Source: a virus. Taken from it: 64,000 nt of DNA. Each line of letters begins with the position of its first letter. Position 1 is the stretch's first letter. Shown one piece after another: positions 13,828-59,508 of this stretch. The translations under genes were made by a program, and so were the position numbers. The DNA lies in the IMG/VR virus record IMGVR_UViG_3300042562_000746, positions 1-64,000 of that record, one strand, 5' to 3'. Under the pieces are notes generated by a model. It saw only the letters and a program-made list of their open reading frames with translations. It was not told the DNA's origin and ran no database searches.

Positions 13828-13876
13828 CTTTGAACAGTCAAAGGTAACTATTTTTAGGTTTTTCAAAGATTTTTGA

Positions 13877-40778: not shown

Positions 40779-40779
40779 A

Positions 40780-41325
40780 TTATATTATTTCTTGTTCATC
40801 TGTATTAAAATTTTTGAATCCTAATTTTGGTTTTAGTTTAGATACATCAAAATACAACTCTTTAATCATCTTTACATTTTTCTTTTTGTAAGTGCGATAT
40901 ACATCATATTTTTGCAAATCTCTATTATTTTTAACTGATTTTTTATAAAAGGTTCTACCACTTTTATCAATTAAGATTGCTTTCCTACCCGTGTCATATC
41001 CTAAATTTTCATTAAACGTTGCATCTTTATCTTCGATTTCTTTAATTAATTCACGAGTGTATGCTTGGTTTTGAATATCATCATATAATTTTAAAAATCT
41101 AGTTAATGGTAGTTCATTTAATTTTATACAATGTATCAATCCTTTTTGTGAATTTTTACCTAATACCAATAACAATGGGGTTGTTGCGGCACTATATGAT
41201 TCACTTACTCCTGTATCTTCATATTTGTAACCATATAATCTATAAAATCCGCCATTCTTAACTTCATTAATAGAGGTTACTATTTCTTTATAAAAATATT
41301 TTCTATAATGATGTATCTGATTCAT
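40780..41325 (-). CDS. Hypothetical phage protein (181 aa)
   Basis: 181 residues. YKYEDTGVSESYSAATTPLL and LVLGKNSQKGLIHCIKLNEL form the conserved-looking core, a pattern I have seen in proteins of marine T4-type phages without known function; the C-terminus is lysine rich (YRTYKKKNVKMIKELYF). It overlaps the GT4 gene by 23 bases. It may be a virion component rather than an enzyme. Confidence 0.62.
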   Translation of the reverse strand: MNQIHHYRKYFYKEIVTSINEVKNGGFYRLYGYKYEDTGVSESYSAATTPLLLVLGKNSQKGLIHCIKLNELPLTRFLKLYDDIQNQAYTRELIKEIEDKDATFNENLGYDTGRKAILIDKSGRTFYKKSVKNNRDLQKYDVYRTYKKKNVKMIKELYFDVSKLKPKLGFKNFNTDEQEII

Positions 41326-42592: not shown

Positions 42593-42595
42593 AAC

Positions 42596-43999
42596 TTATT
42601 TTATTTTGAATAATTCGTATTTTTTTCTAGGTTTCCAATTCGTAAATGCACCATCCATTCCATTGATTAAAGTTTGACACATATTTTGTACACTTAATCC
42701 ACCAACTCCTAGTGCAAAATCTCTACCTAATATTCCTTTTTCTTTTCTTTGTTCTCTACTCATATCATACCAATGACGGATTGAATCTGCTACTTCAACA
42801 TAATCAATATGGTCTTCAAATATATAAGGTGTAGGTACTGAACCTGTAAATGAACGAGATGTTGGCCAAACCGGTGTCACCCAATCTCCCCACTTTAATT
42901 TATCTTTCCATAATCTCCAATCATGTAGAGTACCCCACTTAACATAATCCGATGGTCTTGTATAATCCCAATTGCCATGCACATCTTCATTTTGGAATAC
43001 AAATCCACATTGGTCTTGTATACCACCCGTTACATTTACTATAATTGGTGTTCCTGCCATAATAGATTCTGCAGTTGCTAATCCAAATCCTTCGTTAGAT
43101 GCTATATTAATTGTAACATCTGCAATATTATAAAGATAGTTTAATTCAGTTTCATTCCATCTACCTGTATCAAATACTACATTGATTTCAGGTGCACAAT
43201 CTGCAATAACTCTAGGTAAATCTGTACCATTATCATCCACCGGTTGGGTATGCATTAACAATACGGTCTTTTTAGCTTGCTCAGGTGAAAGTGTTGCTAC
43301 AAATTCTTTGAATGCGTATATAACTTCAATCGGTTGTTTTCGTCTGATATTTCTATTACTCCAATACAATACGAAATCATATGTTTTATCCCCAAATATT
43401 TTCTTTTTGAAATCGGCAGGTACATCTGCTACTTTATAATCTTCCGGATTAATACCATGTGGTACATAACTCACTTGCCAATTTTCAGGTTGTTTCCATC
43501 TATCTTTTGAGGTTAAACTCCAAACTCTATTTGTAATACCAAATGTTTGTTTTGAAATAGTACCTATCCAATCACAACTTTCGTAGTAATCTCTATTGTA
43601 CTTAGGGTCTGGTAAATCATCCCAAATGTGGTAAAAGAATATTGGTGTATGTTGTCTGATTTCATGTTCAATATCATATAACCATATCCAATATCTCGGG
43701 TCTGTAAAGTGTAGAATAGCATCAGGTTTTTCAATTTCTAATATTTGTCTTAACTTTTCTGCCGTTCCATACCCTGTTGATGGATAAATTTTTAGATATG
43801 CATCTTCAATTCCGGTTCTACCACGAACATCATCACATAAATCTAAAATTTTACCTTCTTCTGGATGTGTTACTGCTGCACCCAATTGAACCCAATCATA
43901 GTGTTGTAGTGAACCCATTACTAATTGTTTACTCATATTAGCAATACCACTACTCATTCTTAAATCATCTGCCAATAACAGGATTTTCTTTTTTGCCAT
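42596..43999 (-). CDS. Family 4-type glycosyltransferase (GT-B), 467 aa
   Basis: 467 residues. DDLRMSSGIANMSKQLVMGS (N-terminal half), KTYDFVLYWSNRNIRRKQPI (interdomain), and ASNEGFGLATAESIMAGTPI, the GT4 EGFGL...E motif, followed by VNVTGGIQDQCG. Marginally longer than its neighbour 41303-42592, with which it is collinear. The stop-start junction is TAAGTTATG. Confidence 0.86.
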   Translation of the reverse strand: MAKKKILLLADDLRMSSGIANMSKQLVMGSLQHYDWVQLGAAVTHPEEGKILDLCDDVRGRTGIEDAYLKIYPSTGYGTAEKLRQILEIEKPDAILHFTDPRYWIWLYDIEHEIRQHTPIFFYHIWDDLPDPKYNRDYYESCDWIGTISKQTFGITNRVWSLTSKDRWKQPENWQVSYVPHGINPEDYKVADVPADFKKKIFGDKTYDFVLYWSNRNIRRKQPIEVIYAFKEFVATLSPEQAKKTVLLMHTQPVDDNGTDLPRVIADCAPEINVVFDTGRWNETELNYLYNIADVTINIASNEGFGLATAESIMAGTPIIVNVTGGIQDQCGFVFQNEDVHGNWDYTRPSDYVKWGTLHDWRLWKDKLKWGDWVTPVWPTSRSFTGSVPTPYIFEDHIDYVEVADSIRHWYDMSREQRKEKGILGRDFALGVGGLSVQNMCQTLINGMDGAFTNWKPRKKYELFKIK

Positions 44000-45197: not shown

Positions 45198-46799
45198 TTA
45201 TAATACCATTCTAGAGCCTATCTGAAAATTACTCAAAAATGCGGAATATGCTTTAGTATTACCACTCATTTTATAGTTAAACGCAAATCCAAATCTCTTA
45301 CTAATTTTATAATCAAATGCGGCGCCTAATAAAAATCCCATATGTCTATTTACCGTTGTTTCACCACTTACACTATTATAACTAATTGGTGAGAACATTG
45401 TAAATACTTGTGGTGATATAGTGAGTTTTTTTGAATACTGATAAGGTTTAGTCCAAAATACAATTGCCGATGTTGCCATATTGTATTCAAACCCACCCGT
45501 CTCATCGTTTTTAAGGAATAGATTGATTACACCCACATTATAACCATATGTTCCTTTTTTTGGTGTTGGTTTAATATAGGTATATCCTAATAAGTTCATA
45601 TAGTTTCCGGCTAAATATGCAAATGCCGTTCCGTATGAGTGTATTGCATCTAATTGTCCATCTTTGGTTAATCCCATTTTTGTTATACCACCGGTCATTA
45701 CAATAGAACTCAAATTACTATTTATCATCAATCCTGCACTATAACTTATATCACCTGCTAAAGATGATTTACTAAGTCCCATTGATATAGCTGCTAAATA
45801 CTGACCTGCACTTGCTTCTGCAACAGTTACATCTGATGCTAATAATGTTGGGTTTGTTACTTCTTGTTTTTTCTTTTTCTCTTCCTCTTTTTTCTTTTCT
45901 TCTTCTTTCTTTTTCTCTTCCTCTTTTTTGGTTTCTTCTTTCTTTTCTTCCTCTTTTTTAGCTTCTTCTTTTTTCTCCTCAGTCTTTTTTTCTTCTGATT
46001 TCTTTTCTTCGGTTTTAGCTTCTTCTTTCTTTTCTTCGGTTTTAGTTTCCGTTTTCTTTTCTTCCGCTTTTTGTTCAGCAGGTTTTGCTTCTGCGGGTTT
46101 TGCTTCTGCGGGTTTTGCTTCCGTTGATGATGAACTACCACCCGATGAACTACTACCACTTGCTGGTGGTGGAGATGATGAACCACCACTTGCTGGCGGT
46201 GGTGTATTGGTAGGAGGTGGTGCTGATGCCGGTGGCGGCGGTGGAACATTTACGGGTGGCGGTGGTGGCGGTGCTATGTTTATTGGTGGTGGTGTTGCTG
46301 CATTTGCTGCCGCTGAACTCGCTGCTCCACTTGCGGCGGATGATGCGGCACCACTGGCCGCTCCACTCGCTGCATTTGCTGCGGCTTTTGCTGCGGCATC
46401 TGCGGCTGCTTTTGCGGCTGCATCTGCGGCTGCTTTTGCTGCGGCATCTGCGGCTGCTTTTGCGGCGGCATCTGCTGCGGCTCTCGCTGCGGCATCTGCG
46501 GCTGCTCTTGCGGCGGCTTCTTGTGCTAATCTTATGTTATCGTTTACCGGACAAGGTGTTGCAAATACACTATTTACCCATTGTTGAAATGAACCATTAT
46601 TCATATCTGCTAATGTTACAATTTTAGATTTACCTCTAATAATTGCAACGGTTTGATTTTGTCCGAATGGAATTACGACAACATATACTTTGTTATCACA
46701 TGGGTCAATGTAAGTTTGGGTAATAGTTTGCCCTTCTGCTTTAAATGCAGTTAAGGTAGTAACAATTAATAATAAAATAATTACTAACCATTTCTTCAT
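45198..46799 (-). CDS. Exported outer-membrane barrel protein with Ala-, Pro- and Lys/Glu-rich spacer
   Basis: 533 residues. Signal peptide to GQT (LLLIVTTLTAFKAEGQ). Residues about 95-155 are (AAADAAAK)n helical repeats, then a proline-rich run (PPPPPPVNVPPPPP), a serine/glycine stretch, and a Lys/Glu-rich coiled stretch up to about residue 305. The last 230 residues are antiparallel strands ending SNFQIGSRMVL, an OmpA-like or channel-type beta-barrel; its end resembles the barrel at 53732-54625. The spacer recalls TolA/TonB-type periplasm-spanning segments. It may anchor to cell wall or protrude outward. Confidence 0.8.
   Translation of the reverse strand: MKKWLVIILLLIVTTLTAFKAEGQTITQTYIDPCDNKVYVVVIPFGQNQTVAIIRGKSKIVTLADMNNGSFQQWVNSVFATPCPVNDNIRLAQEAAARAAADAAARAAADAAAKAAADAAAKAAADAAAKAAADAAAKAAANAASGAASGAASSAASGAASSAAANAATPPPINIAPPPPPPVNVPPPPPASAPPPTNTPPPASGGSSSPPPASGSSSSGGSSSSTEAKPAEAKPAEAKPAEQKAEEKKTETKTEEKKEEAKTEEKKSEEKKTEEKKEEAKKEEEKKEETKKEEEKKKEEEKKKEEEKKKKQEVTNPTLLASDVTVAEASAGQYLAAISMGLSKSSLAGDISYSAGLMINSNLSSIVMTGGITKMGLTKDGQLDAIHSYGTAFAYLAGNYMNLLGYTYIKPTPKKGTYGYNVGVINLFLKNDETGGFEYNMATSAIVFWTKPYQYSKKLTISPQVFTMFSPISYNSVSGETTVNRHMGFLLGAAFDYKISKRFGFAFNYKMSGNTKAYSAFLSNFQIGSRMVL
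45868..46080. repeat. Lys/Glu-coding low-complexity tract
   Basis: Repeated GAA/AAA codons (minus strand) code for (EEKK)n in the 45198-46799 protein. The tract opens spurious reading frames on both strands. Confidence 0.85.
46370..46515. repeat. Ala-rich tandem repeat DNA
   Basis: About 24-bp units coding AAADAAAK (minus strand) are repeated several times; plus-strand bases read as tandem gcggcatctgcggctgctttt-like units. Such tandem repeats change copy number by slippage, so the spacer length of the protein may vary between phage isolates. Confidence 0.85.
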
Positions 46800-47653
46800 T
46801 ACTTATTGTTCAGTCCGATTGAAATTTGAGAATACCCTCTGATTGGGTCTGTGTCTATTTTTAATGTAACAAATTTGAAATCTCTTATTATACCAATTTT
46901 AAATGTAGTAAAGTTTGCATTTGATTTTGGAAATGAGATACCACCTAAGTCATCTTTACCTTGCCATCTGATAATTTCATGTCCAAATCCTATCATACCA
47001 TGTATTCCTAATTTACCAATTCTTTTACCACCACCAACATAGAAAGTTGACTCTTTTTTCCAATCTTCTTTACTAAGTGGAAAGTCAACATTGTTAATTT
47101 GACCATATGGATAATAGCTGTTTTGGTCTATTGCATAAGTCATTACATAATCCACAATAAAATATCCTTTATTACCACCAATCAACCCCCAAAATGCAGT
47201 TTGTTTATTGTTAGTGTGTCCTATACCTGCTGAAAATAATACAGGTGTTGAAGCAATCGTATCTCTCCTACCATTTTCATATATTCTAACTACACTTCTT
47301 TGTCTCCACCCAAAATCATCATACCAAATATAAGGATATGGTTGGTAATATCCATATATTCCATATTGTAAACCATACGGATTGTATGTTGTAGGTCTAT
47401 ATCTTCTTACTAATGGTTGTCCTTCAAAATTATCACCTGGTCTAATTGGTGCAGTTTGTGTTCTCCAACTACTCACATTATTTTGTTGTGGTATGGATGG
47501 TTGAACTCTTGTTTGAGTTGATTGTGATGTTTGTGATGATGCTGGAACACTTCCACCAGTTTGTCTCCAAGTTGATACTTGTGCATTTAACATAATTGCA
47601 CATATTAAGACTAACAATATTGTTAATCCACCAATCAATACTAGTTTTTTCAT
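46799..47653 (-). CDS. Exported proline/glutamine-rich protein with C-terminal beta domain
   Basis: 284 residues. An N-terminal signal or anchor (LVLIGGLTILLVLICAIMLN) is followed by a Ser/Gln/Pro-rich linker to about residue 80 and a tyrosine-rich segment (TYNPYGLQYGIYGYYQPYPY). The C-terminal 160 residues are strands with glycine (TAFWGLIGGNKGYFIVDYVM; GKRIGKLGIHGMIGFGH), a small barrel. The start overlaps the FeoA-domain gene (ATGA). A likely partner of the 45198 barrel. A ribosome-binding AGGAG precedes it. Confidence 0.74.
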   Translation of the reverse strand: MKKLVLIGGLTILLVLICAIMLNAQVSTWRQTGGSVPASSQTSQSTQTRVQPSIPQQNNVSSWRTQTAPIRPGDNFEGQPLVRRYRPTTYNPYGLQYGIYGYYQPYPYIWYDDFGWRQRSVVRIYENGRRDTIASTPVLFSAGIGHTNNKQTAFWGLIGGNKGYFIVDYVMTYAIDQNSYYPYGQINNVDFPLSKEDWKKESTFYVGGGKRIGKLGIHGMIGFGHEIIRWQGKDDLGGISFPKSNANFTTFKIGIIRDFKFVTLKIDTDPIRGYSQISIGLNNK

Positions 47654-48004: not shown

Positions 48005-48724
48005 TTATTTTGTGTAAATACCTTTTTTAATCATTCTACCCAATATTCTTGCACACGCAATATCCAATGCCTTTTTAGTTGCTATTGAAATTGTTGATTG
48101 ATTGAATTTAACTTCATCAATCGTTGCATCTGAAAGAAAAGTTAATTCTCTTTTAGTTGTTGCTTCTCCTAATCCACTTGCTGCAAATATCTCACCTGTT
48201 TCTGCATCGGTAAAACGAACTTGTAAACCAATACGAGTAACCACCATATTTTTAACACCATTACTTAAATTTACTGTCTCATCTTCTGATACTGAATAAT
48301 CATAACATTCTATCTCTACGAAATAATGTGCTAATCTAATTTTACCCCTACCATCGAGCTTATCTTGCGATATACCGCTCTGCGATGCTTGAAACTGCTT
48401 AACCATGCGATTTTTAATTTCAGTTTTATCTTCTGTAAATGTAAATCTATTAAGATTACTAAGATACTCCAATGTAATATTAGCCACACCGAGACCGACA
48501 CGTTTTTCTTTAAGTTCCGGATATTGTTCGTACATTTCTTCACTTATACCACATTTTAAAATTTGAATTGGAATGGTAGGCCCGTCATAATCCATATATT
48601 GGCTTATGTCCACTTTGGTTTCAAAACTTGCTTTGTATTGTTCTGTTTTAGTTGAACCTATATTCTGACTACTTGCAACAAGACTTACCAAACAAAAACT
48701 TAATAAAACGAATAAACTTTTCAT
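48005..48724 (-). CDS. CsgG-like exported protein
   Basis: 239 residues with a signal peptide (LFVLLSFCLVSLVASSQ). GLGVANITLEYLSNLNRFTF, then AHYFVEIECYDYSVSEDETV and LQVRFTDAETGEIFAASGLG, follow the CsgG pattern (TxxLxxxGRF, aLxi... TGEI). CsgG forms the outer-membrane pore for curli and related fibres; here no lipobox cysteine is evident, so lipidation is doubtful. A phage CsgG homologue could help release or secretion; no CsgA-like subunit is visible nearby. Confidence 0.72.
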   Translation of the reverse strand: MKSLFVLLSFCLVSLVASSQNIGSTKTEQYKASFETKVDISQYMDYDGPTIPIQILKCGISEEMYEQYPELKEKRVGLGVANITLEYLSNLNRFTFTEDKTEIKNRMVKQFQASQSGISQDKLDGRGKIRLAHYFVEIECYDYSVSEDETVNLSNGVKNMVVTRIGLQVRFTDAETGEIFAASGLGEATTKRELTFLSDATIDEVKFNQSTISIATKKALDIACARILGRMIKKGIYTK

Positions 48725-48815: not shown

Positions 48816-50018
48816 TTAATTACCTTTTGTTGGAAATCTAGTCCAACCACTAATCCATATTGGTTTGGATAATATTTCCATTTCAGCTTTTGTATAAGAT
48901 ACTTGTTTGTTACCTTCTGATAAAGCTTTTGCCTTCATATCAGCTGCAGTAAATACAATTGATGTTGATTTGAAATTTAATAATGGGTCATACGCCTGAA
49001 CCTCATTGTTTTGGAATTTACTTACACCATCTTTATATGCTTGTGCAGTTTCATTACTTTCCATTGAGAATCCCCCTTTTTGATATCCAACAATCTTTGA
49101 GTTAGTAATTGTGAATTGAGTTGCTCTCCTCCATCTTAAACCTAAATTATGGTTTGCTAATGAAGCCACATCAAATGGTCCAACTAAAATCATATTATCT
49201 AATTTAGGATGTGTAAATGGTTGTGCAGATGTACCTGTTCCATCATTATCACATTCTACACCATTTCCAGCATCACCAGCATCTACGAATTGTGGGTCTC
49301 TCTTTGAAACTGAATACGATACTGAACCTCTATATCCAAAATCAAAATCGTAATCATCATCCGCAGTTGCATAAGCGTATAAGTTTTTTGCATTTACAGT
49401 TCCACCAAAAAATTCAAATGCATCATCGTTAGCGTAAATAGTTTGAACATTCTCAATGATTGTCCCACTACCAACTCCACCTAATGTTAGTGCGTTGATT
49501 TCAGAGTTTGGCATTGCTGCGATACCAGCGTATTCAATTCTTACATATTTTAGAACACCACTATTATCCAAATCGTTAGTACCACCATAAGGTCTACCAA
49601 TACCACCTTCAATAGTTGGTTCGGAAGTTCTATTAGTAGTTGCTCTACCTAACAATACAACACCACCCCAATCACCAGGTGTTCTTTCACCAACTGCTTT
49701 ACCTGATGTAAATACAATTGGTTTTGTAGAAGTTCCCTCTGCAATTAGTTGTGCACCTCTTTCAATAATTAGTGCACCTTTCTCTGCAATATCAGAAACA
49801 ATTGTTGTACCCGGTTGGATAATAAGTTTAGCACCATCGGTTACATAAACATATCCTTTTAATGTCCATGTCTTGTCCGATGTTAAAGTTGTTGTTGTGT
49901 TAATGTTTCCACTTAATGTTGTTGTAGTTGGAACATTGATAGGCGTTACATCGCCACCTAATTCTTTTTTGCAGCTGAATAATCCTAATACCAAAATAAG
50001 CCCTAATAATTTTTTCAT
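48816..50018 (-). CDS. Surface lipoprotein with parallel beta-helix
   Basis: 400 residues. MKKLLGLILVLGLFSCKKE is a lipoprotein signal (lipobox LFSC). The body has repeated beta-helix turns (LIIQPGTTIVSDIAEKGALI, then IERGAQLIAEGTSTKPIVFT, GDWGGVVLLGRATTN, GGVGSGTIIENVQTIYANDD). The ending CGWTRFPTKGN-type tail carries no sorting domain. It directly follows, and overlaps, the TonB-dependent receptor, echoing transporter/surface-lipoprotein pairs of Bacteroidota. It probably sits over or beside the receptor at the cell surface; the ligand is unknown. Confidence 0.87.
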   Translation of the reverse strand: MKKLLGLILVLGLFSCKKELGGDVTPINVPTTTTLSGNINTTTTLTSDKTWTLKGYVYVTDGAKLIIQPGTTIVSDIAEKGALIIERGAQLIAEGTSTKPIVFTSGKAVGERTPGDWGGVVLLGRATTNRTSEPTIEGGIGRPYGGTNDLDNSGVLKYVRIEYAGIAAMPNSEINALTLGGVGSGTIIENVQTIYANDDAFEFFGGTVNAKNLYAYATADDDYDFDFGYRGSVSYSVSKRDPQFVDAGDAGNGVECDNDGTGTSAQPFTHPKLDNMILVGPFDVASLANHNLGLRWRRATQFTITNSKIVGYQKGGFSMESNETAQAYKDGVSKFQNNEVQAYDPLLNFKSTSIVFTAADMKAKALSEGNKQVSYTKAEMEILSKPIWISGWTRFPTKGN

Positions 50019-52267
50019 AGATTCAAATTTAATGTTAAAGAAATTGTTCGTTCGTTGTTTGTTTTTATCAAATTTCGGTTTTGTAACTTTTGATAATAGA
50101 TTGATGGTTGACCTAACACATCACCTATTGCCAATTTTATTTCACCTTTATTTAATTTATGTAAAAGGGTAACATCCAATACATCTCTGCTGTTTTCAAA
50201 AATGTCTGGATAACCCTGAAATCCTATTGCTGATATTCTATCTCCTACTCTATTGTAAGTTATGTTAAGTGTGTTTTTCTTTTTATGTATATTCACGCCA
50301 CCATTTAATACATAGTTTGATTGTCCTTGTAATTGTCTTTTAACTCCTTTCACGTTTACTTCCGAATTCATTACCGAAGCGTTTGTATAAAAATCAAACC
50401 ATTCAGTTACCTTTTTACGAAATTCTAATTCAACACCATAAAGATATGCGTTATCAGGATTTGAGTAAGTTAATAATAAGTTTGATGGAACTGAACCATC
50501 AGCTACTACTTGCTCAATTGGTTTTATGAAGTTCTTACCAAATAGGGATACTGAAATATTCTCTCCTACTTTTGGATATAACTCCCATTTCAAATCTAAA
50601 TTATATATGTCAGATTTTTCCAATTTAGGATTACCCAATAATTGTGCGTTTCTTACAAAATCATAATAAGCAAAATTAGCTACTTCTCTAAACTCCGGCC
50701 TTGCTAATGTTTTACTTAATGAAAATCTATACTTCGTTTTTTCTAAATTGTATGAAAGATTTAATGATGGTAATACATCCAAATACTCTCTATTAACTTT
50801 AACTTTACTTCCACTAAAATCTGCGGTAGATACATCAAATAAATTATATTCGGTTCTAACACCCGTATTTAATTTCCATAAACCAAATTCTTTATCCAAC
50901 ATTACATACCCACTACCTAAATCAAAATCAGCAGTGTATTTGTCTGTGTTGTTTGTTATCTCGTCTAACATATCAGTTGAAAGATAACGAAATATTCTTG
51001 CGTTAAATCCTCTAATTTTTTTTAAGTAACCACCACCAATCTTAATATCACCAAATGATTTGTTAATGTTACCACTAAAAGAGTTTTCATCCATCACACT
51101 CCAAAAACGATATGTATCTCTCCATGCGGTAGCATAGGGTTCGTTTACTCCCAATGATTTTGTAATTGGATTAACTCTATAATCAGGTTGCTCTCTAAAG
51201 ATAAAATTGTATCCTAAATTAAAATCCCAAGTTTTAAGTTTACCATCAAATTGAGAATTAACTACAATGTTGTTTATATGGTTAGATGAATTACTATGAA
51301 CATTTTGAACATTATCATAGTTCTCACCATTTCTATTCATATAAGAATCATCAGCTTGATAGTTCACTAATGTTTTCCAACTATATCGGTTCTCACCTAA
51401 ATAAGTTAAATTCAATAAACCATTTGCGGAAAATCTTTTTGTATATAATGTATCTTTATAATCGTATGCTAATTCAGTTGAGGATTGATAATCTATTCTA
51501 TCTATGTAATTTAATCCATATGAGTTTCTAATAGTTGAACTGAATAAAGCATTGAATTTATTTTTCTTTACACCAAATGATAAACCACCATTTAAGTTTG
51601 GAGATGAATTAAATCCATCTACTATTGGATTACTAAATTGCTTTGTATATAATCTTTTATCACCATTACTACTAACTCTATATCCGTATGTAGATGGGAA
51701 TGTGGAAGGGAATTCAGTAGCTTGAACTAACTTAAAATCCTTTAAAGTTGAAACCAAACCCCAACCACTTCCCAATGAGATATTGAAGAAATTATCGGAA
51801 ACTTCTTTTGTTGTAATTTGTACCAAGCCACCACTCCAATCTCCTGGTTGATTTGCTGATGCTGATTTAGCAACTATAATATTATCAATTAAAGCTGTTG
51901 GAATTATATCAAATGAAAATGCTCTCCTATCAGGTTCAGTTGATGGTAGGAGTGTTTTGTTTAGGATAGCCGAATTGTATCTATCTGCTAATCCTCTTAC
52001 TAATACAAACTTATCGTTTTGTATTGTTACACCACTTACTCTTTTAAGTGCATCACCTACATTTCTGTCAGGTGTTTTTTTAATAAATTCTATGGATACA
52101 CCATCAGAAACTACCGATGAATTTCGGATAGTTGTTATTACTGCTACTTCGGTAATTTTCTTACCCGCTGAACGAACTGTAACTGTTGTTAGTTTTTTTG
52201 AAAATAGAGTGTCTTGTGAAAATGATATAAATGGTAAGGATAAAAGGACAAATAAAAATACTCTCAT
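50015..52267 (-). CDS. TonB-dependent outer-membrane receptor
   Basis: About 750 residues. I start at the Met at 52267 (MRVFLFVLLSLPFISFSQ), a good signal peptide; starts 6 or 27 bases upstream also exist. The plug domain follows (VGDALKRVSGVTIQNDKFVL, VRGLADRYNSAILNKTLLPS, GGLVQITTKE), then a long 22-strand-type barrel ending ERTISLTLNLNL. It lacks the carboxypeptidase-regulatory N-terminal domain of SusC/RagA types. Such receptors import iron chelates, vitamins or sugars using TonB. A full-length phage-encoded one is exceptional. The leader carries a hairpin over its start (52255-52312). Confidence 0.9.
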   Translation of the reverse strand: MRVFLFVLLSLPFISFSQDTLFSKKLTTVTVRSAGKKITEVAVITTIRNSSVVSDGVSIEFIKKTPDRNVGDALKRVSGVTIQNDKFVLVRGLADRYNSAILNKTLLPSTEPDRRAFSFDIIPTALIDNIIVAKSASANQPGDWSGGLVQITTKEVSDNFFNISLGSGWGLVSTLKDFKLVQATEFPSTFPSTYGYRVSSNGDKRLYTKQFSNPIVDGFNSSPNLNGGLSFGVKKNKFNALFSSTIRNSYGLNYIDRIDYQSSTELAYDYKDTLYTKRFSANGLLNLTYLGENRYSWKTLVNYQADDSYMNRNGENYDNVQNVHSNSSNHINNIVVNSQFDGKLKTWDFNLGYNFIFREQPDYRVNPITKSLGVNEPYATAWRDTYRFWSVMDENSFSGNINKSFGDIKIGGGYLKKIRGFNARIFRYLSTDMLDEITNNTDKYTADFDLGSGYVMLDKEFGLWKLNTGVRTEYNLFDVSTADFSGSKVKVNREYLDVLPSLNLSYNLEKTKYRFSLSKTLARPEFREVANFAYYDFVRNAQLLGNPKLEKSDIYNLDLKWELYPKVGENISVSLFGKNFIKPIEQVVADGSVPSNLLLTYSNPDNAYLYGVELEFRKKVTEWFDFYTNASVMNSEVNVKGVKRQLQGQSNYVLNGGVNIHKKKNTLNITYNRVGDRISAIGFQGYPDIFENSRDVLDVTLLHKLNKGEIKLAIGDVLGQPSIYYQKLQNRNLIKTNNERTISLTLNLNL

Positions 52268-52312
52268 AAACATATTAGGGTTTGTTTTCCCCAATAACTA
52301 TGAGAGTATTTT
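52255..52312 (-). terminator. Long hairpin overlapping the TonB-receptor start codon
   Basis: A perfect 14-bp inverted repeat: AAAATACTCTCATA (RNA 5' arm, 52312-52299) and TATGAGAGTATTTT (3' arm, 52268-52255), with an inner TTGGGG/CCCTAA stem in the loop, then TATTTG. The ATG at 52267 lies in the 3' arm. It may terminate transcription from 52349 or hide the receptor's start codon, or both (attenuation). Confidence 0.7.
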
Positions 52313-52348: not shown

Positions 52349-52612
52349 CTATCCTAATTCTTCTTCCTTCTTAGGTTCTTCTGCTTTTTTACTAGTAAAT
52401 TTATCCAAAGTATCTGCACCCATACCGATAGCAGTAATTACCATTACGGCATTTACTAATTCAGCGGCTGGTTTGAAATGGTCTTCGGAAAATGAATTAG
52501 CCAACATTGTACCACATAAGAATAACGCACCTACGAATGCGATTACTGGTTTTACGGAAATTGAACCCCTTTCATCTTTGAAAATTTCAATTGCCCACTC
52601 TTTAAATGTCAT
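52349..52612 (-). CDS. Holin-like membrane protein (87 aa)
   Basis: 87 residues. SISVKPVIAFVGALFLCGTM (first helix), then VNAVMVITAIGMGADTLDKF (second), with a charged tail (KKAEEPKKEEELG). The pattern of two membrane helices and the GADTLDKFT-type motif resembles phage holins of marine T4-type phages. It may control lysis timing, and the position near the envelope island fits. A GGGAG ribosome-binding site precedes the start. Confidence 0.68.
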   Translation of the reverse strand: MTFKEWAIEIFKDERGSISVKPVIAFVGALFLCGTMLANSFSEDHFKPAAELVNAVMVITAIGMGADTLDKFTSKKAEEPKKEEELG

Positions 52613-52662: not shown

Positions 52663-53016
52663 TTACCATTTTGGTGCATCTTCCTTAAACTCATCACCTT
52701 CTTTCTTTTTAGGTTTTGGTGCTGCTGCTGCAGGAGTTGCATTTTTTTCTTTGATAATTACAGTTTTAGTTCCACCACCTGCTGCTTGTTGTTGAGCCGG
52801 TATGTTAATGTTGATTGATTGTGGTTGAACCTGCTTATCACTATCTTTTGGTTTTTGTAAGTAGGACATTAAGAATGTACCACCACCCACTACCAATGTA
52901 CTAACTGTACCTATAAGAGTTTTTTTCAAACCACTCATTGTACCATCATTATGTTTTTCGTTTTTAGCCATTGCAGCTTCTTCCGATGTCTTTGTTGTTT
53001 TTGTTGCCTTTGCCAT
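52663..53016 (-). CDS. Single-pass membrane protein (117 aa)
   Basis: 117 residues: a polar N-terminus, one membrane helix (TLIGTVSTLVVGGGTFLMSY) and a proline/glutamine/alanine-rich tail with a lysine/glutamate end. Topology suits a spanin or periplasmic tether. Function unknown. Confidence 0.66.
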   Translation of the reverse strand: MAKATKTTKTSEEAAMAKNEKHNDGTMSGLKKTLIGTVSTLVVGGGTFLMSYLQKPKDSDKQVQPQSININIPAQQQAAGGGTKTVIIKEKNATPAAAAPKPKKKEGDEFKEDAPKW

Positions 53017-53017: not shown

Positions 53018-53386
53018 TTATATTTTATTAAAGTCTGTTATTCCTAATTGATTTCCTTTATCATCAAACAATGCAATTCTATATGCAGATGATGGTAATG
53101 CTGATGTATATACTTTTAATATATTGTCACCAACTTTTACTTCACTTGTTGATTTAGATACTACTCTATTTGAGATATCGAATATTTTTATTGTTACCGT
53201 TTGTGCTGTTTCACTTTTAACATTCATTGCTACTTGTGATGTTACAAAGGGTGATTCTAATTTAATACCACTTACACTATTAATTGCCAATTCAGATGGT
53301 ACTTGATTTATTATAGTTGGTATATCTACCTTTCTGCATCCGATAAATGTTATAGCTACCAATGCTATTAAAATTGTTTTTTTCAT
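53018..53386 (-). CDS. Lipoprotein with sorting-domain-like beta fold (122 aa)
   Basis: 122 residues. MKKTILIALVAITFIGCRKV is a lipoprotein signal (lipobox FIGC). The rest is a single beta sandwich: TAQTVTIKIFDISNRVVSKS, then KVYTSALPSSAYRIALFDDK, very like the type 9 secretion-system C-terminal (Por) sorting domain fold. Here it is free standing. Probably a surface or periplasmic component with 53388-53732. Confidence 0.74.
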   Translation of the reverse strand: MKKTILIALVAITFIGCRKVDIPTIINQVPSELAINSVSGIKLESPFVTSQVAMNVKSETAQTVTIKIFDISNRVVSKSTSEVKVGDNILKVYTSALPSSAYRIALFDDKGNQLGITDFNKI

Positions 53387-53387: not shown

Positions 53388-53732
53388 TTACTTTACTATT
53401 ATTGTTGTTTTACCTACTTTATTTTTACTCTCATCTTCCAATAACAAATATAAATATTTAATTTCTAGTGTATTAGTGTATATTTTCTTTTTATTTATTC
53501 CAATTTGTCCTTTAAATCTTTCTCTTGTCAAAACTTGGTTGGTTGTACTATCACCTATTGTTAGAGTATATACACCATTTTTAGTTAAATCAAATTGTAT
53601 TTCTTGTCCGTTTTCAACACTACTTTGTGCAACACTAAATATTTTTACATTTTCAGGAGGTGGAGTTGGTATAACTTCTACCTTCTTACATGCGGCTAAA
53701 CTTAAACACAATATGAATAATATTTTTTTCAT
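53388..53732 (-). CDS. Small lipoprotein (114 aa)
   Basis: 114 residues. MKKILFILCLSLAACKKVEV is a lipoprotein signal (lipobox LAAC). The following domain is strand rich (SVENGQEIQFDLTKNGVYTL, IKYLYLLLEDESKNKVGKTT), again a small beta sandwich. Overlaps the barrel gene by one base. Function unknown. Confidence 0.74.
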   Translation of the reverse strand: MKKILFILCLSLAACKKVEVIPTPPPENVKIFSVAQSSVENGQEIQFDLTKNGVYTLTIGDSTTNQVLTRERFKGQIGINKKKIYTNTLEIKYLYLLLEDESKNKVGKTTIIVK

Positions 53733-54625
53733 TAAAATTGAAAGTTTGTTCCTACCATAAATAGAATTGGGTTACTCTTTTTATATCCAACCGATTCACT
53801 CAATTTATCCCAAGTTGTGTTATATCTGATGTTAGTATTCAATACAAATCTTTTAGTTATTTTCCAATCAATAGATGTACCATAATATAAGTCCAAATTG
53901 AAATCATCTACATACGCTAAATCCGATTCAGTACCATCTTTAAATACTTTATAAACATCACTCATTGCAAATATTTGTGGTGATACGTTTACTCTTTTTG
54001 TTTTTAGTGTATACGTGTACATCACCATACCTCTATAAGTAAGTTCAGATGATGCTGGCATTTGTGGATATATTAAATCTTTAAAATCACCGTTTTCGTC
54101 CACAGTATATTTTCCTTCCCATTCACCTTGATAAGTTCCCCAAAATGATTTTGATGCTGTTAAACTATAACCAAATGTCCCATATTTTTTTGTTCTAAAC
54201 ACATCTATAAACGATAGTGTAATATCTTTTTGGAAATCAAAATCAGTTGAGTAAAATGTTTGGATTGTAGTTGTTCTTTTTTCTGTGTTTCTACTAAGAC
54301 CATAACCCACACCATAATAATTCCATATAGGATTTATTGATGCTGCAAATGAATGACCCCATTGACCATTTAAAGACGATTTATGGTATCCTAAATTAAG
54401 TGTAGTTGATATTTGCTTTCCAATAATTCCTACTGAAAGGTTTGATGATGAAAGAACATCTTTTGAAAAATTAACATAGGATTGTAATATACCCACATCG
54501 TTCCAATCATCACTTTCTCCAAATAATTCTTTTGGTGATAATTGTAATGTATCGGGTTTTTGTATCTGTGCGTTTGTAACAAATGTTGTCAAAATTAGTG
54601 ACAAAACTAATAGTATTTTTTTCAT
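53732..54625 (-). CDS. Outer-membrane beta-barrel protein
   Basis: 297 residues from MKKILLVLSLILTTFVTNAQ, a signal peptide ending NAQ. The rest consists of alternating strands (SVGIIGKQISTTLNLGYHKS, KRVNVSPQIFAMSDVYKVF, KRFVLNTNIRYNT) ending NPILFMVGTNFQF with terminal aromatic F, the outer-membrane barrel signature. The end resembles the 45198-46799 barrel. It could be a phage-coded porin-like or adhesin scaffold. Confidence 0.78.
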   Translation of the reverse strand: MKKILLVLSLILTTFVTNAQIQKPDTLQLSPKELFGESDDWNDVGILQSYVNFSKDVLSSSNLSVGIIGKQISTTLNLGYHKSSLNGQWGHSFAASINPIWNYYGVGYGLSRNTEKRTTTIQTFYSTDFDFQKDITLSFIDVFRTKKYGTFGYSLTASKSFWGTYQGEWEGKYTVDENGDFKDLIYPQMPASSELTYRGMVMYTYTLKTKRVNVSPQIFAMSDVYKVFKDGTESDLAYVDDFNLDLYYGTSIDWKITKRFVLNTNIRYNTTWDKLSESVGYKKSNPILFMVGTNFQF

Positions 54626-54629
54626 TAGT

Positions 54630-54890
54630 TTAATCATTTAAGTATTGTTTACAAACATCACAACCACATTTTTCTCTTACCTTTTTCCAATCAATATCTC
54701 CACAAACATCTTCAAATCTATGATTTATTTCACGATGGTCGTGAATGTACCTTATTGCTTTATCGGTAAGTCCCATCCACATATCACATCTTGAAGCGTT
54801 GCCATCACCACCAGAACTATACATTCTTACCTCATTTTTATTACAATCTGAACAATGAAATATTATTCCGTCTCCGTTTTTCTTTGGCAT
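54630..54890 (-). CDS. Cysteine-rich zinc-binding protein (86 aa)
   Basis: 86 residues. FHCSDCNKNEVRMYSSGGDG, SRCDMWMG, VCGDIDWKKVREKCGCDVCK: two or more CxxC pairs, likely two zinc sites. No signal peptide, so cytoplasmic, unlike its neighbours. A clear AGGAG ribosome-binding site precedes it. Function unknown. Confidence 0.7.
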   Translation of the reverse strand: MPKKNGDGIIFHCSDCNKNEVRMYSSGGDGNASRCDMWMGLTDKAIRYIHDHREINHRFEDVCGDIDWKKVREKCGCDVCKQYLND

Positions 54891-54903: not shown

Positions 54904-57198
54904 TTATTTCATTCTAATTTTTAATGTTGTTCCTGCTTTATTAACTGCATCCATAAATCCAACCGAAACCAATCCCAATATATTATCCAATTTTGTTTTA
55001 GTTGTAAATGTAATTTTATATTCCGTTGTATTATTCAAAACACCACCATCGGTAATTAATGAACCAAAATTTACATATGTTCCTTTATCCGTTCCGTAGT
55101 TAGTTGGTGAACCTATTGTTTTATAAGATACATTCATAAACTTTAACAAACTATTATCATAATTTAAGTGTAATTGAGTTCCTACTAATTCTTGTTGTAG
55201 TGGGTCTATTGTAATATATGCATAAACACTATCACCCATTATTTCAGTTATGATTGATGCGTTGATTTCGTTTGATATTGATAAACTCATTGTTTTAATA
55301 CCCATACTTCTAACCGAATTGCTTGCGGTTGTATTAATCACAGGTATTGCTGAATGTGAAAGGTTTACATCACCTCTCCAACTTACACTAACATTATATG
55401 TGTTATTAAGTGTTCCAGTATTTAAACTGAATGGATATAAACTTCTCGTTGAATTGAATTGTGTATTCCAATTTGATTTTGTAATCCCATCATATTCCGA
55501 TTTACCATATAGTTTCATCAAATATGTTAGGGTTGAATATTGTGTAAGTGATTCTACACCTGTTAAGTGTTGTAATAATTTATATGTATCTGCTTCATTA
55601 AATAAACCATCACCCGTTACATCTGCGTTCATATACTGAATACCATATCCAAATTCATTACCTGTTTCATTGCCAAATAATCCACGATTTGATAATTCTT
55701 TAAATGCCAAATATACATCTGCAACACCAACGATACTACTATACAATGTGTTTAAATCCGTTTGATTAGTATATGATAAATCAATTCCATGTTGTTTGAA
55801 TGCCAATATTGGTGAGAAAGTAAATTCGGCTCTAGTTCCATACCAACCATCTTGTAATCTTAATTGAGCTTGAAATGTTGATGAAGTTATTTTGGTTGTT
55901 AAATTACCAGGCATTACATATGTTTTCCACCAACCACTTACACTATAAACACTAACAGGCCCATCGTATATATCAAATAATTTAATTGATGTTATATCGT
56001 TTGGAGATACTCCTGTTCCATCAAATTCTCTTTCATCTATTAATAATTGATGCCCACCTAAATTTGCATCATATGGATTTATTATTGCCCATTCAACTTG
56101 TCCGGCCGCCGTTGTTGCTTTAATACCACCACCACTCACCTTTAAGGTATCTAAATCATTTGTAATATCCGTTTTACCTAATCCACTTATTGCTCTCAAT
56201 GTATTAGTTGTTACACCCCATACATTGTTTACATATGTGTTTGCTTTTGCTGAAAATTTTGTTTCATCTACATTACCACCAAAGTCAAAATTGAATCGTG
56301 CAGTTAGGACTTCTCCGTTTGAGTGAGTTACTGAATTTGTATAAAACTCCGTAAAGGTTGCATCATCGGGGTTAGACCAAGTTCCATATTCAATTACATA
56401 AGCACAACTAAAATGATTTGGTAAGTCATTCCATTGAGAACCACCACCCCATTTAGTTACTGCGTAATCTTCATTACCACTATTATTTGGTTCACCACCT
56501 GCCCAATTATTATATTGACCAGGAATGTTTCCGTTTGTTTGTCCGTTATTTATTTTGATAAGAGTTCCCTTTTCAGGTCCTGCATCTATCGTCCATCTAG
56601 CTTCCTCTACTTCATCGGTTAGTGCAAACCAAATATTACCTTGAGGAACATTATTAAAAATAAAAGCATCTTCATCGGCAGAAGTGATTGTTACTAAATA
56701 TCCGGTCTGTCCTTTGAATGTAGTTAATAACGATGCTGCTCTTGCATTTGTGTAAGTTGCACCGGTTGTTATTGGTCTATAAAAGTGTCCATTTACTCCA
56801 TTGTAATAATATCCCGTTGGATTTATAGTTGTGGCTACTGATAAAGCAATATTACCCCTTACTGAACCTGTATTTACTTTTAGGGATGCTAATGCCGTAT
56901 TAATATCAGCCATCGTTCCTGTAACCACTAATCGTGTTTTGTTACCACTTAAAGTGAATCCACTTGCGGCAGTTAAACCCGTTGTTGTGTTTAATACGAA
57001 TGTTGTACCTGATGGTGGATTAACTAAACTGATTGATGCTAATAGTGTTGCAGTAGAACTAAATCCACTCAATACAAATCCACTTGCATCTTGTCCGGTA
57101 GTAGATTGTAAAAAAGATTTAGAGTCCGGAGCAGATACACTCTGTCCGAACCCTAAAAATGATATTAAAAGAAATAATGTAACTAATAGATGTTTCAT
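54904..57198 (-). CDS. Exported C-type-lectin-like, dockerin-like and cohesin-like protein
   Basis: 764 residues. Signal peptide (LLVTLFLLISFLGFGQ). Residues about 140-275 fit a C-type lectin fold (NARAASLLTTFKGQTGYLVT; NIWFALTDEVEEARWTID; NWAGGEPNNSGNEDYAVTKW; WNDLPNHFSCAYVIEY), with EPNN and WND calcium/sugar positions. About residues 520-545 have a dockerin-like loop (NADVTGDGLFNEADTYKLLQ). The C-terminus (GTQLHLNYDNSLLKFMNVSY) is cohesin-like, and a WRGDVNLSHS motif is shared with 57198-58853. A surface adhesin or sugar-binding scaffold. Confidence 0.8.
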   Translation of the reverse strand: MKHLLVTLFLLISFLGFGQSVSAPDSKSFLQSTTGQDASGFVLSGFSSTATLLASISLVNPPSGTTFVLNTTTGLTAASGFTLSGNKTRLVVTGTMADINTALASLKVNTGSVRGNIALSVATTINPTGYYYNGVNGHFYRPITTGATYTNARAASLLTTFKGQTGYLVTITSADEDAFIFNNVPQGNIWFALTDEVEEARWTIDAGPEKGTLIKINNGQTNGNIPGQYNNWAGGEPNNSGNEDYAVTKWGGGSQWNDLPNHFSCAYVIEYGTWSNPDDATFTEFYTNSVTHSNGEVLTARFNFDFGGNVDETKFSAKANTYVNNVWGVTTNTLRAISGLGKTDITNDLDTLKVSGGGIKATTAAGQVEWAIINPYDANLGGHQLLIDEREFDGTGVSPNDITSIKLFDIYDGPVSVYSVSGWWKTYVMPGNLTTKITSSTFQAQLRLQDGWYGTRAEFTFSPILAFKQHGIDLSYTNQTDLNTLYSSIVGVADVYLAFKELSNRGLFGNETGNEFGYGIQYMNADVTGDGLFNEADTYKLLQHLTGVESLTQYSTLTYLMKLYGKSEYDGITKSNWNTQFNSTRSLYPFSLNTGTLNNTYNVSVSWRGDVNLSHSAIPVINTTASNSVRSMGIKTMSLSISNEINASIITEIMGDSVYAYITIDPLQQELVGTQLHLNYDNSLLKFMNVSYKTIGSPTNYGTDKGTYVNFGSLITDGGVLNNTTEYKITFTTKTKLDNILGLVSVGFMDAVNKAGTTLKIRMK

Positions 57199-58853
57199 TA
57201 TTCTACTATTAGATTAATTTTTTTACCACTACCATCAACTGCGTCTGCTAGGACTGTATAGAATAAACCTGCCGTATTTGCTAATGTTTCTTTTGGAGTA
57301 AATGTTAATCTATATGGTGTACCTGTTTTAATTCTACCCGTTTTAACCTGGTCCATTGAACCAAATGTTAATCTGCCGGCGTTATTTGTTGAGAAATTTA
57401 CAACATTTGCACCCGCATCAAAAGCAACATTATCAAAAGTTAATTTAGTATTATCATATTGTAAAATTACTTCTAAACCCGCCAATCCTTCTTTTGTTAA
57501 AGTTCCTGTTAATACAACTTTACCATTTGTAATTGTAGAGTTCAAACTTAATTTTGCAGTTTCTATTACTGATGTGTAACTCATATTTGCAACTGAAAAT
57601 GATTTTATTACATTTTCATTACCGATTGAATTTGTATAATTACCCGTACTCACTCTACTTGCAATTGTGTCAGGATGAGATGAATGTGACCAATCCAAAT
57701 CTCCACCCCATGCAAATACTGCATCTACCGCTTGTGTTGAGTTAGTTACATATACTCTATTTTTAGGAGTACCATCTAACCAACTTTGATTTAATAAACC
57801 ACTATACCATCTTACCGATGTTGATGTTGATTTTGGTATCATTGCAATTGAGTCTGCATTTATACCCATTACATGTGCAAATATATTATATGAATCACTT
57901 TCACTAAATGTACTTTTACCTATTGTAATTAAACCAACTTTCTTTTCTAATACAGGTCTTGTAAAGTATGTCCCTGCACCAGTAATATCAGTTTGTGAAA
58001 CACCTAAAAACGCTTTATATGCATCCGATACGGTCACAATGTTATTCATCCAACTCTTTTGAAATGCAGCTCCTACAAATACACCCAAACTATCACCAAC
58101 TTTAATACCTGATGTAAATGTTGCTTCACCACTTGCATCCAATACTTTTTGTTGAATTGGTTGTTGTGTCCAATCTATATCACCACTACCATCTGATTTC
58201 AATTTCATCAATTGTATGCTATGGTCTGTGATTGAGTATCCAGATGGGAATAAAACTCTAACTTTGAATTGAGATGTATTACCACTTACATTTGATAAAG
58301 ACATTGTACCTGGGTCAGTTGTAATTGGAGTAATGTATGCACTTGCTGCATCTACTGAATATGCTAAATCCAATTTATGTATGTTGGTATATTCACCCAA
58401 ATCTTTGATTACATATTTTTGAGTTGCAATATCTCCGTTGATTGATGCATCGGTTCTTTGTATAGTCAATTGTCCTACATTCCAATCCGAATTAGCTGTG
58501 TAAGACCAAGGAGATGCTAGATATTGTGCATATAAATTTGTAGCAATTATGTTATTTGCGGTACTTGCTGTAAATCTATAAGATGTCCAACCGGTATAAT
58601 ATGTTTGAACCGATGTTCCTTGTGAGAATGTGGTTGAAACATATGCCAATGCTTTATTGTTGAATTGATATCTCAACCAAAAATATCTTGGTGTAGTTGT
58701 ACCTCTTGCAACTGTATATTTTACTGAAATTGTGTCACCAACCTTTAAACCTGTTGTAGGTGTTACTGATTGGTTGATTGTTAATTGTGCGTTTACTGTC
58801 AATGTTAATAGGGATAGTATAATTATCCCTAACGTCATAAAGAATTTCTTCAT
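57198..58853 (-). CDS. Exported protein with cohesin-like C-terminus (paralogue of 54904-57198)
   Basis: Start taken at MKKFFMTLGIIILSLLTLTV (58853), just after the upstream stop; 551 residues with signal peptide. N-terminal beta domains (KVGDTISVKYTVARGTTTPR) lead to a dockerin-like but degenerate segment (GKSTFSESDSYNIFAHVMGI) and WGGDLDWSHSS, then a cohesin-like end (LEVILQYDNTKLTFDNVAFD; RLTFTPKETLANTAGL). The parallel order with 54904-57198 shows duplication. Self-assembly through cohesin-dockerin-like contacts is an inference. Confidence 0.76.
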   Translation of the reverse strand: MKKFFMTLGIIILSLLTLTVNAQLTINQSVTPTTGLKVGDTISVKYTVARGTTTPRYFWLRYQFNNKALAYVSTTFSQGTSVQTYYTGWTSYRFTASTANNIIATNLYAQYLASPWSYTANSDWNVGQLTIQRTDASINGDIATQKYVIKDLGEYTNIHKLDLAYSVDAASAYITPITTDPGTMSLSNVSGNTSQFKVRVLFPSGYSITDHSIQLMKLKSDGSGDIDWTQQPIQQKVLDASGEATFTSGIKVGDSLGVFVGAAFQKSWMNNIVTVSDAYKAFLGVSQTDITGAGTYFTRPVLEKKVGLITIGKSTFSESDSYNIFAHVMGINADSIAMIPKSTSTSVRWYSGLLNQSWLDGTPKNRVYVTNSTQAVDAVFAWGGDLDWSHSSHPDTIASRVSTGNYTNSIGNENVIKSFSVANMSYTSVIETAKLSLNSTITNGKVVLTGTLTKEGLAGLEVILQYDNTKLTFDNVAFDAGANVVNFSTNNAGRLTFGSMDQVKTGRIKTGTPYRLTFTPKETLANTAGLFYTVLADAVDGSGKKINLIVE

Positions 58854-58854: not shown

Positions 58855-59508
58855 TTATTTTTCCTCAAATAGTTTGGTGATTAGTTTGTCACAACCTTTT
58901 TTAAGTGCATTACTTAAACTTGTTTGATTAAAACCACCACCTTCACCGATAATCAATGTACTCATTGATATTTCTGAGGAGGACTCTTCTACTATAACTA
59001 CTTTGTCTTTCTTTCCTTCGGATTTAAGAATGCCACGTAAACGAATTACAACTTCTTCTTCTCCACTATGAAAAACCGATATGTTCTTTTTTGTTGTAAG
59101 AACATCTAAAAATATAATTTGAACTGATACTTTGTTTGGTGCTACCGAAGATAGATTATATCCTTTATCTTGTAGATATTCTTCTAAAATATTCTTAACA
59201 CCAAATTCTAATTTACGATTTCCTGCTAACTTACCGATTTTTACTTCGTTTGTTACTGATTCAATTGTTACTTGCTTATCGGCATCATACCAAATGTTTT
59301 CAGGTGAATTTTTGAATGTACCGTCAATTCTCCATTCAATCCAATTTGCAACATCTCTTGTTATTTCAGTTTTACCTGCTAATTCCAAGTAGGTCATAGT
59401 AGCTGTGAATAACAACGCACATACAACCCATACAAGCGCTAGACTTATAAATCCTAGCGCGATTTTTTCGCCAATAGTTTGGCTTAAGTTTAATAACTTC
59501 GCTTTCAT
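58855..59508 (-). CDS. Membrane-anchored periplasmic protein (217 aa)
   Basis: 217 residues with one N-terminal membrane helix (KIALGFISLALVWVVCALLF). The remainder is an alpha/beta domain (VKIGKLAGNRKLEFGVKNIL; KVSVQIIFLDVLTTKKNISV; EEVVIRLRGILKSEGKKDKV), reminiscent of CsgG/LpoB-like nucleoside-free beta-alpha folds. It may couple the inner membrane to the CsgG-like and barrel proteins. Function not known. First gene of the envelope block. Confidence 0.68.
   Translation of the reverse strand: MKAKLLNLSQTIGEKIALGFISLALVWVVCALLFTATMTYLELAGKTEITRDVANWIEWRIDGTFKNSPENIWYDADKQVTIESVTNEVKIGKLAGNRKLEFGVKNILEEYLQDKGYNLSSVAPNKVSVQIIFLDVLTTKKNISVFHSGEEEVVIRLRGILKSEGKKDKVVIVEESSSEISMSTLIIGEGGGFNQTSLSNALKKGCDKLITKLFEEK

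Follow-up and report, generated by a model that had tools for sequence, protein, structure and literature searches.

Cohesin–dockerin scaffolds have been described in bacteria and archaea, as in the type I/II cellulosome of Clostridium thermocellum. T9SS type A sorting-domain proteins, one of them with a PA14 domain, have been described in the Bacteroidota phage 'Cryophage', where the cargo is highly variable between variants (PMC7468147). Curli (CsgG/CsgF) operons occur in pelagimyophages and in methylophage Melnitz, and host-cell capture or lysis control has been proposed for them (PMC7029224, PMC9004378). A literature search on phage cohesins and dockerins gave no description of the system reported here, two proteins of which carry GenBank labels in Flavobacterium phage immuto (gene 13, lectin C-type; gene 15, cohesin).

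The locus lies in a 64,000-nucleotide stretch of viral DNA, referred to below as the window (Table 1). As in the cellulosome, its cohesins have a fold that matches dockerin-binding cohesins with Z of 12–14, a dockerin-like loop–helix pair is present, which in the split phage forms stands at the C-terminus of the head protein, and in immuto the anchor, the adaptor and the ligand-bearing subunit are each a protein of their own. The phage system differs from the cellulosome in being viral, in having sugar-binding heads and no glycoside hydrolase (no such domain was found in A, B or the variant scaffold proteins), in a dockerin with a degenerate first loop and a following beta/GDxNxSHS element, and in anchoring via a T9SS domain or lipoprotein rather than via S-layer or sortase. 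'Cryophage' differs in having separate endoglucanase, GH39 and PA14 proteins, and no cohesin–dockerin chain or conserved cassette is reported for it (PMC7468147). The phage curli clusters are likewise phage-encoded, exported surface clusters but have no sequence link to the window cassette. The same cassette is found in immuto genes 12–19 (MW353177), as CTLD-Doc, Coh-Doc and Coh-CTD proteins with c4, c6, c7 and c2; there B is split in two, a T9SS domain is present and the CTLD protein lacks a cohesin.

Table 1 Features of the scaffold genes and their cassette in the window
Feature	Position	Strand	Description
c2	58855..59508	minus	N-terminal TM anchor and periplasmic domain; weak Lipoprotein_16
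Gene B (P0002)	57198..58853	minus	551 aa; signal peptide, cohesin 1, TTR/X-like, degenerate dockerin, cohesin 2
B cohesin 1	58284..58784	minus	res 24-190; VIA Z 13.8, PF00963 match
B transthyretin/X-like domain	58062..58283	minus	res 191-264; orthologous part of immuto gene 14 matches PF00576 weakly
B degenerate dockerin-like module	57639..58061	minus	res 265-405; GDLDWSHS at 57681-57704
B cohesin 2	57201..57578	minus	res 426-551; fold, PF00963, hhalign
Gene A (P0001)	54904..57198	minus	764 aa; signal peptide, Ig-like, C-type lectin, beta domain, dockerin-like, cohesin
A signal peptide	57142..57198	minus	res 1-19; Q19 invariant, presumed cleavage region
A C-type lectin domain	56374..56823	minus	res 126-275; EPN 236-238, E243-D244, WND 256-258
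A dockerin-like module	55339..55767	minus	res 478-620; Dockerin_1 in 6/48 homologues
A intact calcium loop DVTGDGLFNEAD	55588..55623	minus	res 526-537
A GDVNLSHS motif	55351..55374	minus	res 609-616; C-terminal end of dockerin module
A C-terminal cohesin	54907..55272	minus	res 643-764; Pfam in homologues, Foldseek, PF00963
c8	53732..54637	minus	signal peptide and predicted outer-membrane beta-barrel; fold inferred from sequence
c1, second copy	53388..53732	minus	small lipoprotein, T9SS-CTD-like domain; lipobox in sequence
c1	53018..53386	minus	small lipoprotein, T9SS-CTD-like domain; Por_Secre_tail below cut-off
c4	52663..53016	minus	small protein, one N-terminal TM segment; orthologue of immuto gene 16
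c5	52349..52612	minus	small two-TM protein
c6	48005..48724	minus	exported protein; 53% identity to immuto gene 17
c17	46799..47653	minus	exported protein, occasional cassette member
c7	45198..46799	minus	signal peptide, Ala/Ser/Pro/Lys/Glu-rich linker, predicted OM barrel; orthologue of immuto gene 18

An earlier note on this DNA had reported two tandem reading frames at 54904–58853 with C-type-lectin-like, dockerin-like and cohesin-like modules. Both frames are present there on the minus strand, and the module observation is confirmed as real and far beyond chance: the lectin domain in A, the cohesin-like sheet ending both proteins, the shared GDxxxSHS motif, the calcium loop of one protein and the degenerate loop of the other were all recovered, by the evidence given below. 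It had not listed the N-terminal cohesin of B or the signal peptides, nor the cassette around the pair and the relatives with T9SS tags. PHROGs has no family for either gene.

The AlphaFold model of A matched solved C-type lectins with VIA Z ~16 over 120–130 residues, the lectin filling the match list, and Lectin_C was found in 38 of 48 homologues. The domain has the fold and the EPN/WND ligand set of the calcium/sugar-binding subtype (PF00059), and the EPN, E243 and WND ligands are kept in 61 of 69 homologues. The canonical disulfides are absent, a single Cys being present in the window domain. As the EPN/WND site is intact, the prediction that the head binds sugar is well supported. A lectin diversified by a diversity-generating retroelement was not supported: neither RVT_1 in the 126 kb record (possibly a fragment) nor a template repeat within the window was found.

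The cohesins were identified by fold and by profile. PF00963 matched at 57240–57521 (gene B, E 6.8e-6), at 54991–55236 (gene A, E 2.5e-4) and at 58608–58769, in the N-terminal cohesin of B (E 0.009), each of the three matches being singly under the curated cut-off; cohesin matches were also obtained with Pfam in 20/48 A and 23/67 B homologues. Foldseek retrieved cohesins with both models at E ~1e-6, and residues 22–190 of B, the cohesin that fills its VIA match list, matched with Z 13.8 and an rmsd of 2.1 over 131 residues. In the dockerin-like module of A the ligand positions of the loop DVTGDGLFNEAD are conserved in nearly all 69 homologues, while the first pseudo-loop is a half loop in which the last Asp (D494) is the sole ligand kept; both loops of B are degenerate and without calcium ligands. 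Measured against the two F-hand loops of a type I dockerin (PF00404), A thus has one full loop and B none. The best Dockerin_1 match among the A homologues had E 3.3e-4 (loci L261 and L260 gave ~1e-3). GDxNxSHS closes the module in both proteins; its G is invariant, and SHS is kept in 68/69 A and ~65/67 B homologues.

The C-terminal halves of A and B are homologous (27% identity, E 1e-14). The gap between B and A is at most 8 nt in 100 of 101 distinct pairs, mostly overlapping, and in these 100 the genes are predicted to be translationally coupled. The divergence of the A dockerin was compared with that of the B cohesins as a sign of docking, and no signal was seen (rho 0.09 with cohesin 1, 0.22 with cohesin 2); the strongest dockerin–cohesin correlation, 0.62, was within gene A. 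Docking between A and B, which the modules would suggest, is unproven, as is the polymerisation proposed in the earlier note: A has a single intact calcium loop, B has none and the A-dockerin and B-cohesin distances are uncorrelated.

The pair, which the earlier note had proposed to seek in Bacteroidota phages, is found in immuto as natural split forms: 13 is CTLD-Doc, 14 is Coh-TTR-Doc and 15 is Coh-T9SS CTD (PF00963, E 5.9e-9; TIGR04183, 44.8 bits against a cut-off of 23). As judged from these modules, 13–15 is a putative three-part chain with a host export tag at its end. Gene B corresponds to 14 plus 15 (hhalign 95.8%, E 6.9e-9, and 98.0%, E 2.7e-13). When viral models were searched blind by fold with B, a phage 'Secretion system C-terminal sorting domain' protein came first (E 7.8e-22); then came models 363 and 243 aa long, as 14 and 15 are. 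In loci L060 and L188 the lectin partner ends exactly at the dockerin and adjoins a Coh-Coh-CTD protein. Across relatives the dockerin and cohesin parts are constant and the heads exchangeable (C-type lectin, PA14, LCCL, Laminin_G or GEVED).

The conserved cassette comprises an inner-membrane-anchored protein, B, A, outer membrane barrels, lipoproteins and small membrane proteins. Its most constant members are c2, which directly precedes B in nearly all loci, c4, c6 and c7; c6 is the most conserved, and c7 gave only a weak linker match in PHROGs. The possibility that c6 is a CsgG was not supported: PF03783 was silent on the window's own record, immuto and six related records (HTVC008M control, 180 bits), and hhalign to the HTVC008M CsgG gave a probability of 2%.

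No T9SS sorting domain (TIGR04183/PF18962) was matched in A or B of the window. Such a domain is present on the homologous scaffold proteins immuto 15, L060, L065, L261, L260, L188 and L243, and the lipoprotein c1 gave a match at 53051–53239 (E 8.6e-5; 20.1 bits against a 27-bit cut-off) and a Por_Secre_tail match with E 9e-4, likewise under the cut-off. A CTD HMM matched c1-sized proteins with E down to 6e-12. A T9SS-tagged cohesin occurs in 25 cassettes, the CTD-like c1 in 96 and both in none; because the two are strictly mutually exclusive, the window scaffold is probably anchored through c1.

A and B are proposed to form a self-contained phage scaffold of cohesin–dockerin type, with A binding the ligand and B serving as adaptor; it would be exported, membrane-anchored and displayed on the infected cell, a reading to which we give slightly better than an even chance. 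The Sec signal peptides would take both proteins out of the cytoplasm of an infected cell that probably belongs to the Bacteroidota. The B-type scaffold would be attached to the outer membrane; in some phages its second cohesin is fused to a T9SS type A sorting domain, for which the c1 lipoproteins probably substitute here. The dockerin of the lectin protein may then dock on the adaptor cohesin, and the exposed head, here a calcium-type C-type lectin, would bind glycans of neighbouring cells, host capsule or particles. The most likely use would be a sticky coat on the infected cell, late in infection, that keeps new hosts near the progeny released by lysis; the nearest alternative is that receptors are coated against superinfection. 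If this is true, phages re-equip the infected-cell surface with a modular adhesive, and the 'sibling capture' idea, put forward for pelagimyophages and so far unproven, gains concrete, testable proteins. The dockerin–cohesin pairs would be new and possibly calcium-light.

Phage receptor-binding and decoration proteins commonly contain C-type lectin and Ig-like modules, and the heads are swapped here as in receptor-binding proteins, so A and B might be virion parts (tail-fibre tips, capsid decorations) attaching the phage to host glycans. However, all 68 A homologues (by a simple hydropathy rule) and all 62 B homologues have signal peptides, the cassette includes T9SS sorting domains and lipobox partners, and in immuto it lies a long way from the genes for baseplate, tail and capsid. 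On the grounds of signal peptides and gene location this reading was judged very unlikely. Since the proteins carry signal peptides, lie in such a cassette and have relatives with T9SS tags, display on the infected cell is preferred; the sugar binding proposed in the earlier note is well supported for the lectin head. That note had named only generic Ig-like folds as the outcome that would count against it; instead, the models match cohesins specifically, and the relatives split into dockerin-bearing lectins and cohesin-bearing anchors. Cohesin and dockerin likeness free of docking meaning, in generic Ig-like repeats of secreted phage proteins, would accord with the non-cellulosomal cohesin-like folds of bacteria and archaea (several matched PDB chains among them), with the degenerate calcium loops and with the missing co-divergence. 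We consider it unlikely, as in several architectures a single operon encodes the two as a pair divided between its proteins, with dockerins C-terminal on the head proteins and cohesins on the anchor.

The cassette might also be an envelope-exit (lysis) module, A and B being its outer-membrane- or surface-binding parts and the small membrane and outer membrane proteins breaching the envelope. Of 171 distinct cassettes, 41 have a strong GH19-type endolysin no more than 6 kb away, often adjoining c5, which is a holin candidate because such an endolysin adjoins it in several other phages, and c2 (inner membrane anchor) and c7 (outer membrane barrel with long linker) could bridge the periplasm. Yet immuto has an annotated chitinase/holin pair ~28 kb from the cassette, no part in lysis is evident for the glycan-binding heads, the cohesins or the dockerins, and the holin role of c5 is itself presumptive, which makes this quite improbable. 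It is equally improbable that exported A and B mainly block superinfection or scavenge nutrients, the lectin masking or capturing surface glycans together with a nearby TonB receptor/lipoprotein and nuclease: a TonB-dependent receptor and lipoprotein lie inside the window cassette and about a dozen others, and an exported EndoG-like nuclease adjoins it in immuto, L065 and L188, but most cassettes lack the pair and the nuclease, and no glycan-degrading enzyme is present.

With the displayed scaffold as the preferred reading, a conserved viral version of such systems occurs in more than 100 aquatic phage contigs of IMG/VR, with upstream genes differing between contigs, and in one cultured phage; the carriers are viruses of aquatic Bacteroidota. 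To the one phage described as hijacking T9SS in the literature searched, it would add a further case. A bacterial origin of A and B was rejected, scans of genome contigs having given no relative of B and matches to A confined to its lectin part. It is possible, though short of an even chance, that a cohesin-free host receives the anchor, the adaptor and exchangeable lectin heads from the phage, and that the host's own T9SS or lipoprotein export then serves to build an adhesive coat on the infected cell, which possibly captures neighbouring hosts. The c6 profile, in a search run without a positive control, matched nothing in 80 Flavobacteriaceae genomes. Cohesins were found in 0/80 of these genomes and T9SS cargo in 79/80.

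The earlier note had proposed that two adjacent genes, here called A and B, encode proteins with C-type-lectin-, dockerin- and cohesin-like modules, and both genes were found on the minus strand at the positions tabulated. The two proteins share homology over their C-terminal 270-280 residues (27% identity, E 1e-14). Confident AlphaFold models built from aligned homologues (69 for A, pLDDT 84.5; 67 for B, pLDDT 89.0) bore out both the C-type lectin of A (residues 127-274, VIA Z ~16) and its cohesin (Foldseek E 1.5e-6). B also matched cohesins (Foldseek E 1.2e-6; VIA Z 13.8 for residues 22-190), and thus contains two of them where one had been described. Among 48 A proteins, Pfam profiles detected Lectin_C in 38, Cohesin in 20 and Dockerin_1 in 6; among 67 B proteins, 23 matched Cohesin. 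Of the 69 A sequences, 61 retain the EPN and WND ligands that characterise sugar-binding C-type lectins. Of the dockerin-like loops of A, the alignment of homologues showed 526-537 to be conserved and the first to be cut down to its last Asp; those of B are degenerate, as had been remarked. Signal-peptide-like starts, scored by a simple rule rather than SignalP, were present in all A (68/68) and B (62/62) homologues sampled.

One module recurs across 12 diverse proteins of the cassettes. It consists of a half loop whose last residue is Asp, followed by a DxNxxx loop and a short beta element, and is closed by the motif GD(V/I/A)N or GY(N). The lectin protein of several phages stops exactly at this motif (e.g. 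...LGDINLSHSSN in the related loci L060 and L188). GDxNxSHS therefore closes the dockerin-like module at its C-terminus.

Positions of the features discussed (in the window unless another genome is named)
Feature	Positions	Strand	Description
Gene A	54904-57198	-	764 aa
Gene B	57198-58853	-	551 aa
TonB-dependent receptor, then lipoprotein	48816-52294	-	inside cassette; lipoprotein of 400 aa
c7	45198-46799	-	long linker, tandem Ala-rich (12-nt unit) then Lys/Glu-rich, between signal peptide region and predicted barrel
Glycosyltransferase-like cluster	37911-43999	-	beside PD-(D/E)XK-like nuclease
EndoG-like DNA/RNA nuclease	28457-29095	-	exported, signal peptide
Direct repeat	4866-4967 and 13754-13855		102 nt, copies 85% identical, 8.9 kb apart
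HTVC008M locus	6701-10345		exported protein of 228 aa, curlin-like repeats (IxQxGxxN), adjoining CsgG

The finding is real and exceeds the original claim: A and B are part of a widespread, modular, exported cassette. Its gene order is conserved (c2, B, A, (c8), c1, c1, c4, c3, c5, c6, (c17), c7), while the genes upstream differ widely between loci; the window cassette is without c3. A lies no more than 8 nt after B in 100 of 101 distinct pairs, usually with an overlap of 1 or 8 nt. The best-conserved member is c6, whose profile gave at least 574 confirmed stretches in IMG/VR. A strict lipobox is present in 184 of 208 distinct proteins of c1, a small lipoprotein with a T9SS-CTD-like domain. The TonB-dependent receptor (Plug E 8e-8, OMP_b-brl_3 E 5e-26, TIGR01782 E 2e-54) occurs in ~12 related loci, or 14 if some fragments and the window are counted; the lipoprotein following it occurs in eight.

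Among annotated phages the closest relative is immuto, a Flavobacterium phage of 160 kb that carries contractile-tail genes and was isolated on Flavobacterium sp. LMO8; because of this relative and the lipoprotein and T9SS-type sequences, we infer a Bacteroidota host. In immuto, gene 13 combines a C-type lectin with a dockerin, gene 14 a cohesin with a transthyretin-like domain and a dockerin, and gene 15 a cohesin with a T9SS type A sorting domain. Profile comparison, using a B alignment that takes in five relatives carrying the sorting domain, aligned B with gene 14 (E 6.9e-9) and its second cohesin with gene 15 (E 2.7e-13). Among all viral structure models the top match to B (E 7.8e-22) was a phage protein whose name refers to a secretion C-terminal sorting domain; the next, of 363 and 243 residues, are equated with the products of genes 14 and 15 by length only. 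Cohesin-(dockerin)-cohesin-T9SS fusions occur in other phages (L060, L065, L188, L260 and L261), and heads are exchanged among relatives: C-type lectin alone or with Ig_7, Laminin_G_3 or LCCL; PA14; GEVED. Domain divergence, within A/B and between A and B, is mostly uncoupled, as would be expected from frequent module exchange. Such natural rearrangements reveal the design of the cassette.

The T9SS-domain cohesin protein was present in 25 distinct cassettes, c1 lipoproteins in 96, both in none and neither in 9; because the loci are related, these counts are no statistical test. The window cassette belongs to the c1 kind. An HMM from the fused T9SS domains matches c1-sized proteins (best E 6e-12). 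Because T9SS-cohesin and c1 never share a cassette, c1 may take the place of the fused tail as membrane anchor. Cohesins were found in 0/80 Flavobacteriaceae genomes at E 1e-3, and T9SS sorting domains in 79/80. If the hosts are such Flavobacteriaceae, both partners of any docking would therefore be phage-supplied, and the phage export tag would correspond to the host's own system. The single precedent found for phage-encoded T9SS cargo is Cryophage (PMC7468147).

Sequences or models show the identity of the modules, the signal peptides and lipoboxes, the T9SS tags of relatives, the conservation of the operon and the exchange of heads. The cassette would likely work as a docked surface scaffold. 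A and B would be exported from the host cell, the scaffold proteins would be anchored to the membrane, dockerin would dock with cohesin and the lectin head would bind sugar, so that infected cells may adhere. Counting against docking are the incomplete calcium loops and the lack of co-divergence between the A dockerin and the B cohesins. Alternatively the cassette could be tied to lysis: 41 of 171 distinct cassettes have a strong GH19-type endolysin no more than 6 kb away, a partial association, but the annotated lysis genes of immuto are ~28 kb away. For phage curli pores 'sibling capture' or lysis control has been proposed (PMC7029224, PMC9004378); c6 as CsgG was not supported by sequence comparison. 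CsgA/CsgB are reported missing from the CsgG operons of such phages, in contrast to the curlin-like-repeat protein of the pelagiphage HTVC008M. No description of a phage cohesin-dockerin-lectin cassette was found in the literature covered, which took in few subscription papers; two immuto genes already carry the GenBank labels lectin and cohesin.

The IMG/VR record totals 126,250 bases, of which the window (1-64000) holds DNA-metabolism genes, chaperonin GroES, glycosyltransferases, numerous exported proteins and the direct repeat. Homologues of the EndoG-like nuclease are encoded next to the cassette in immuto (gene 12), L065 and L188. The glycosyltransferase-like cluster, arranged like immuto genes 87-101, suggests surface glycan remodelling.
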